A stretch of DNA of 64,000 nt, taken from assembly GCF_026385505.1 (NCBI RefSeq), contig NZ_JANIDV010000003.1, forward strand, positions 186,001 to 250,000, in the 5' to 3' direction. A model generated the notes under the pieces. It was not told where the DNA came from. It saw only the letters and a program-made list of their open reading frames with translations, and searched no databases. The position numbers and the translations under genes were made by a program. Shown here piece by piece: positions 54,317 through 56,395 of this stretch (the first letter of the stretch is position 1; every line of letters starts with the position of its first letter). Source of the DNA: Bombella dulcis. Its GTDB lineage: Bacteria > Pseudomonadota > Alphaproteobacteria > Acetobacterales > Acetobacteraceae.

Positions 54317-54925
54317 TCAGCTGCTTTTGCCGTCGGAGGATGGTTTCTTGCGGAATGCTGCCAGACTGACAACTTCGGCTCCCTCATGGGAGGAGTCCCC
54401 GTGAGTGGAGCCGGTTTCTGCGTCGTGGCTGCATGTCAGGGGGTGGAGCTTGTGGATTCCGGCCGTGTCGATATCGGTCAGGCCGTCTTCAGCGGAAGAG
54501 GGTTCCTCTGTCTCATCATCCGGACGGAACGTGAAATGAAGGACCAGATGAATGTGCGGGTCCGCAAAGGCCGTGATGGCCCTGAAGGGAATATGCAGCG
54601 TGCTGGGAATACCCCCAAAGGACAGGCCGACCGACATGGAACGGTTTTTATGATCGAGTATCAGGTTCTGGAACTGATGCTGCAGGACGATGGTCATTTC
54701 TTCCGGGTAGCGTTCCTTTAGGCGGGCGGGGATGTCCACGCCCGGAACACCGGTGCGGAAGGTCATGTAGAAATGATGATCTCCCGGCAGGCCATGTTCA
54801 CTGACATATTCCAGTGCGTTGAGCATGACGTTGCGCTGGGCTTCTTCTATCCATCTATCATAAGGGAGGAGACTTGCGGGAATGGAAGGACCGAACCCGT
54901 CCGGGCCGTTGGTATCGTCACTCAT
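54317..54925 (-). CDS. sspB: ClpXP adaptor SspB (alphaproteobacterial type)
   Basis: 202 residues. The SspB-alpha core is obvious: LPYDRWIEEAQRNVML, HGLPGDHHFYMTFRTG, RLKERYPEEMTIVLQHQF, FGGIPSTLHIPF. The tail is long and acidic, ending SLAAFRKK, a C-terminal ClpX-docking type segment. It tethers ssrA-tagged proteins to ClpXP. The ssrA gene encoding that tag lies about 125 bases upstream on the same strand. Confidence 0.93.
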   Translation of the reverse strand: MSDDTNGPDGFGPSIPASLLPYDRWIEEAQRNVMLNALEYVSEHGLPGDHHFYMTFRTGVPGVDIPARLKERYPEEMTIVLQHQFQNLILDHKNRSMSVGLSFGGIPSTLHIPFRAITAFADPHIHLVLHFTFRPDDETEEPSSAEDGLTDIDTAGIHKLHPLTCSHDAETGSTHGDSSHEGAEVVSLAAFRKKPSSDGKSS

Positions 54926-55049
54926 CGAGGGAGACCATCACCTGTTGCATCTGAAAGTATTTCAGGTGTGCGACAGGCAGCGTGAAATCGCAAGGGTCCA
55001 GATCTGATATTCTGTTTATTAAGGGATGGTGTCTCAGAAATGAGACAGG

Positions 55050-55333
55050 TGGGGGGGCTTCTGTTGCCCGGTGCACCCCCCGGACCGCGCTTATCGCTTA
55101 TGCAGCAACAGCGAGCACCTCAGAGTTATCGTTGGCACTTGTAAAGTCAGCCCGATGACGGCGGAACAATACCGGGCAAAAAGTAGATCTTTACCATGCG
55201 TGTCGAGCCTGTTTCGTCCCCATAGCGTCAGCCCGTGAAGCTGATGGTGGAGACGCCGGGCACTGCCCCCGGGTCCACAACACTTATTTCATCTACCGTT
55301 TATCGCCATAGCCAAGGCCGAAGCCTCCAGCAG
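55050..55333 (-). ncRNA. ssrA: tmRNA, circularly permuted two-piece form
   Basis: On the minus strand the RNA runs acceptor piece first. Acceptor end: T-stem CCGGG/CCCGG (55272-55256) with 7-nt loop, 3' acceptor strand CGTCTCC (55255-55249), A, then CCA (55247-55245). A 23-base spacer with hairpin TCAGC/GCTGA follows, then the coding piece begins GGGGACG (55221-55215), pairing over 7 bp (one G-U) with CGTCTCC. The tag reading frame 55136-55098 encodes ANDNSEVLAVAA and a TAA stop. This permuted order is known in Alphaproteobacteria. It rescues stalled ribosomes and adds a ClpXP degradation tag. Outer ends are estimates; a G6/C6 hairpin (55051-55081) may mark the 3' end. Confidence 0.93.
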
Positions 55334-55415: not shown

Positions 55416-55489
55416 GAGGGAAGCGGGCAGTCGTGCTGATCTGCTTTTATGAATCATCCGGTACAGCCGAGCGAGTGGGAGAGACCGTC

Positions 55490-56395
55490 ATGGCCCTGAC
55501 AGAAGAACAGCGTTCCGAGATAGAGGCCGTGCGTGCCGCTCCTTACCAGACAGTCCGGCCCACCGTCCCGGCCATGGAAGAGCTTCTGTTCGAGCCGTTC
55601 CCGCTGCTGGATCATGGTTTCATCCGTGTCGTGGATTATATGGGGGATGATTCGGCCGTTGTGCAGGCGGCGCGTGTTTCCTATGGCAGGGGGACCAGGA
55701 AGACATCTGAAGATGCCGGACTGATCCGCTATCTGATGCGGCACCGCCATTCCACGCCTTTTGAGATGTGCGAGATCAAGTTCCACGTGAAACTGCCGCT
55801 TTTCGTGGCCCGGCAGTGGATTCGCCATCGTATGGCCAGCGTGAATGAATATTCCGCCCGCTATTCCGTGCTGGACCGTGAATTTTATCTGCCGGAGGCC
55901 ACGCAGATCGCCGCCCAGAGCAGGGTCAATCATCAGGGGCGGGGCGATGTTCTCAGTGCCGAGACGGCGCAGGAGGTCCTGTCCATTCTCCAGCGTGATG
56001 CGCTGCAATGTTATGGCGATTATGAGCAGATGCTCGACCCGGAAGGGATGGCTGTGGCCCGTGAGCTGGCCCGCATCAATCTGACACTCAATACCTATAC
56101 GCAGTGGTACTGGAAGATTGACCTGCATAATCTCATGCACTTCCTGGCCCTGCGGGCGGATTCCCATGCCCAGTATGAAATCCGTGTCTATGCCCAGAAG
56201 ATGATCGAGATTCTCAGGGCATGGGTGCCGCATACGGCGCAGGCTTTTGAGGAATACCGTCTCGGAGCCTACAGCTTCTCGGCCAGCATGCTGAAGGTTC
56301 TGCGCCGTCGTCTTGCTGGTGAGACGGTCACGCAGGAGACATCCGGCCTCACGAAGCGTGAATGGACGGAAATGCAGGCTGTTCTGGAAGGCTGA
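55490..56395 (+). CDS. thyX: FAD-dependent thymidylate synthase ThyX
   Basis: 301 residues. The ThyX signature RHR-x3-S-x-NEYSxRY is seen as [14 protein letters not shown] (112-125). It makes dTMP from dUMP with methylenetetrahydrofolate, NADPH and FAD. ATG 55490 has GGGAGAG upstream. It is divergent from ssrA. Replaces classical ThyA in function; no thyA is in the window. Confidence 0.97.

Follow-up and report, generated by a model that had tools for sequence, protein, structure and literature searches.

Does the segment at positions 55050-55333 of the window (the whole 64-kb stretch of Bombella DNA that was analysed) carry a complete ssrA gene of the permuted, two-piece kind, as an earlier note on this DNA had claimed, and is there anything about such a gene that is out of the ordinary?

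Identity and anatomy of the locus

A covariance-model search with the Rfam alpha_tmRNA model, RF01849, matched the minus strand at 55371-55050 over the full model, scoring 234.7 bits (E 8.1e-67); this is far beyond chance and above the gathering threshold of 50 bits. The tmRNA_permuted model RF04321 matched the same minus-strand gene at 145.5 bits, and ARAGORN independently called a permuted tmRNA (tmRNA*) at 55341-55007 with the tag ANDNSEVLAVAA, the sole tRNA or tmRNA gene that it detected in the 64-kb window. The order of the pieces is permuted, the acceptor with its CCA lying 5' of the coding piece, and the elements described in the earlier note, including the tag frame and its stop, are found where it had placed them. 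Its span was in the right place but somewhat short, the full feature being slightly longer by either program. The locus is thus almost certainly an ordinary, presumably functional alphaproteobacterial permuted two-piece ssrA. A gene of this kind is already known and is standard for alphaproteobacteria, and it is common to 115/120 genomes of the family Acetobacteraceae. What is gained is confirmation that a bee-associated acetic acid bacterium possesses the standard two-piece tmRNA together with its partners; the gene alone changes nothing.

The anatomy was read directly from the alignment and the DNA (Table 1). The acceptor strand CGTCTCC is followed by A73 and the encoded CCA, with the 3' end at 55245, and the coding piece starts at 55221 with GGGGACG. 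The two pieces form an acceptor stem of 7 bp, as had been predicted, in which the third pair is G.U; this G3.U pair is the known alanine identity element. The tag opens with AND and closes in a degron-like AA. Folded as a single strand, the acceptor half is no more stable than its shuffles (z 0.07), a fold that leaves out the greater part of the coding piece along with its partner helices. The best promoter-like match for ssrA is weak (9/12), and a search downstream of the gene found no T-run terminator and no clear terminator of any kind.

Table 1. Features of the Bombella ssrA locus and its neighbors, in window coordinates.
Feature	Position	Strand	Basis or remark
sspB, adaptor delivering ssrA-tagged proteins to ClpXP	54317..54925	-	PF04386, E 2e-38; 124 bp downstream of ssrA
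3' hairpin TGTCTCA/TGAGACA, candidate terminator or processing site	55029..55047	-	Sequence
Coding piece, opening GGGGACG	55050..55221	-	Sequence and RF01849
Tag frame ANDNSEVLAVAA plus TAA	55098..55136	-	ARAGORN and translation
Spacer between the pieces, 23 nt, with TCAGC/GCTGA hairpin; presumably excised during maturation	55222..55244	-	Sequence
Acceptor piece (T-arm, CCA)	55245..55327	-	RF01849 alignment; 5' end placed near 55327 by analogy with the 83-nt Caulobacter chain B (PMC1168896)
T-arm CCGGG-GGCAGTG-CCCGG, non-canonical T-loop	55256..55272	-	RF01849 alignment and relatives
Thy1-family gene, thyX-like	55433-56395		Divergent, upstream of ssrA

T-loop, spacer, and tag among relatives

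The parsed set of relatives comprised 79 rows but 78 distinct genes, because the Bombella gene was entered twice (as L001 and from the window); a further 13 loci, which the search expression failed to match, were not counted. The T-loop GGCAGTG had been described as unusual, which holds against tRNAs and other tmRNAs but not against alphaproteobacterial tmRNAs: it occurs more often than any other form in the family (55 of the 78 distinct genes), the remainder having GGCAGTA or GGCGGTA, and the RF01849 consensus is GGCgGUA. It was therefore rejected as an oddity, being clade-wide. T-loops deviating from the U-U seen in other tmRNAs had already been noted for Caulobacter and for a mitochondrial tmRNA (PMC1168896).

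The spacer was likewise correctly described in its length and hairpin but is nothing special. Across the parsed rows spacers run from 5 to 87 nt (median 28), 23 nt is among the commoner lengths, and 11 of the 79 rows are shorter still; the idea that it is unusually short was rejected. The minimum is reached in two permuted tmRNA genes (L036:51-355 and L061:51-342), where just 5 nt separate the CCA from the coding piece, raising the question of how a spacer of this length could be excised. Tags ending in AVAA predominate among the parsed genes, and ANDNSEVLAVAA itself recurs within Bombella and in several other genera.

Complete permuted tmRNA genes were also seen on two plasmids, Acetobacter persici pAC1084_1 (219.1 bits, tag ANDNRVALAAVA), where the gene adjoins type I-F cas genes, and A. 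pasteurianus pAP22518-1 (237.1 bits, tag ANDNKVALAAVA). These were the only plasmid records sharing the plasmid tmRNA gene at >=90% identity. The tags of the Acetobacter plasmid loci (L107:2947-3360 and L108:2824-3173) end in AAVA, not AVAA or ALAA, and the plasmid tag-coding DNA had no match at <=2 mismatches in 397 family genomes. These may be plasmid-borne tmRNAs in which the degron is altered. Sinorhizobium phage Phosso matches the tmRNA tag region over a short stretch (PV764938.1:349626-349675), possibly a phage tmRNA.

Maturation, copy number, and partner genes

Two-piece tmRNAs arise when tRNA-processing enzymes cleave the precursor; the resulting RNAs stay base-paired, are charged with alanine, and together with SmpB tag stalled proteins for degradation (PMC3968760, PMC11915505); in Caulobacter the tagged proteins are degraded through the SsrA/SspB pathway and ClpXP (PMC8119881). 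Judging from family membership, we infer that the Bombella gene is expressed and that its RNA would be processed, charged, and used in tagging and degradation in the same manner. Folding of the transcript would pair CGTCTCC with GGGGACG, and excision of the spacer by tRNA-processing enzymes would leave an acceptor RNA with a CCA end and a coding RNA beginning at 55221, the two staying joined through base pairs. Acting with SmpB and carrying alanine, this RNA would rescue stalled ribosomes by adding (A)ANDNSEVLAVAA, and proteins so tagged would be recognized by SspB and ClpXP and degraded. The spacer is short, and the two relatives with a 5-nt gap might likewise suggest that it is retained and that the RNA works as a single continuous permuted molecule; charging, however, requires that the encoded CCA be freed, and two-piece maturation is established in alphaproteobacteria such as Caulobacter (PMC3968760, PMC1168896), making an uncut RNA very improbable.

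That the locus is instead a degraded copy or a duplicate, the functional ssrA lying elsewhere, is scarcely credible: we found nothing in its favor, whereas RF01849 has exactly one match in the 1.87-Mb, 27-contig assembly, the standard tmRNA model RF00023 gave only sub-threshold matches over the whole genome, the best five of which proved on checking to be tRNA genes, and the acceptor stem, the CCA, and the tag are undamaged and do not differ within Bombella. A second ssrA elsewhere in the genome, whose absence bears directly on the original claim, was rejected on the same matches.

The predicted two-piece tmRNA is accompanied by the partners it would need. Both smpB (PF01668, 164.4 bits) and clpX (657 bits) were observed in the same genome, and with sspB also present, the genome has the components for trans-translation and for breaking down tagged proteins. 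The position of sspB is shared widely: of the 59 genomes in a hand-entered family subset that have both genes on one contig, 50 have sspB downstream of ssrA, on the same strand and no more than 1.5 kb away. Class-wide, drawing about one genome per family and counting only those in which ssrA and sspB share a contig, the same arrangement is found in 49/57 alphaproteobacterial genomes, and in 47 the genes are within 300 bp. Adjacency, which was judged from match positions only, is thus conserved; that it marks a conserved transcription unit across the alphaproteobacteria is a tentative and rather doubtful proposal. Were the unit shared, tag and adaptor would be co-expressed, and the conserved neighborhood offers a simple, testable idea on the coupling of tagging and proteolysis. 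An open-access literature search by titles and abstract openings found no report of ssrA-sspB adjacency. The sspB leader (54926-55010) is itself strongly conserved within Bombella and contains a CACCTG/CAGGTG inverted repeat; a known RNA element there was rejected, as no Rfam family matched at better than chance level.

Likeness to known systems

Among the closest counterparts are the genes of B. intestini, B. favorum, and strain B3987, whose RNA core and tag are identical to those of the Bombella gene (four records); what differs is a small number of substitutions, located in the spacer, close to the 3' end, and in the 3' hairpin. The spacer hairpin is kept in three other Bombella-type records, and a search for the spacer pattern matched only three records, from Bombella favorum, B. 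intestini, and Acetobacteraceae bacterium B3987. The 3' hairpin has undergone a compensatory change, being TGTTTC/GAAACA in the congeners versus TGTCTCA/TGAGACA here.

Relative to RF01849, the gene has the full-length match, the permuted order, the family-type T-loop, and a tag ending in AA, but past the tag its coding piece falls short of the consensus, lacking most of model positions about 274-330; the same short post-tag piece is found in other Acetobacteraceae genes displayed. The Caulobacter crescentus tmRNA resembles that of Bombella in having two chains, a chain B of 83 nt, and a non-canonical T-loop base (PMC1168896), whereas its chain A is 213 nt, against about 172 nt in Bombella.
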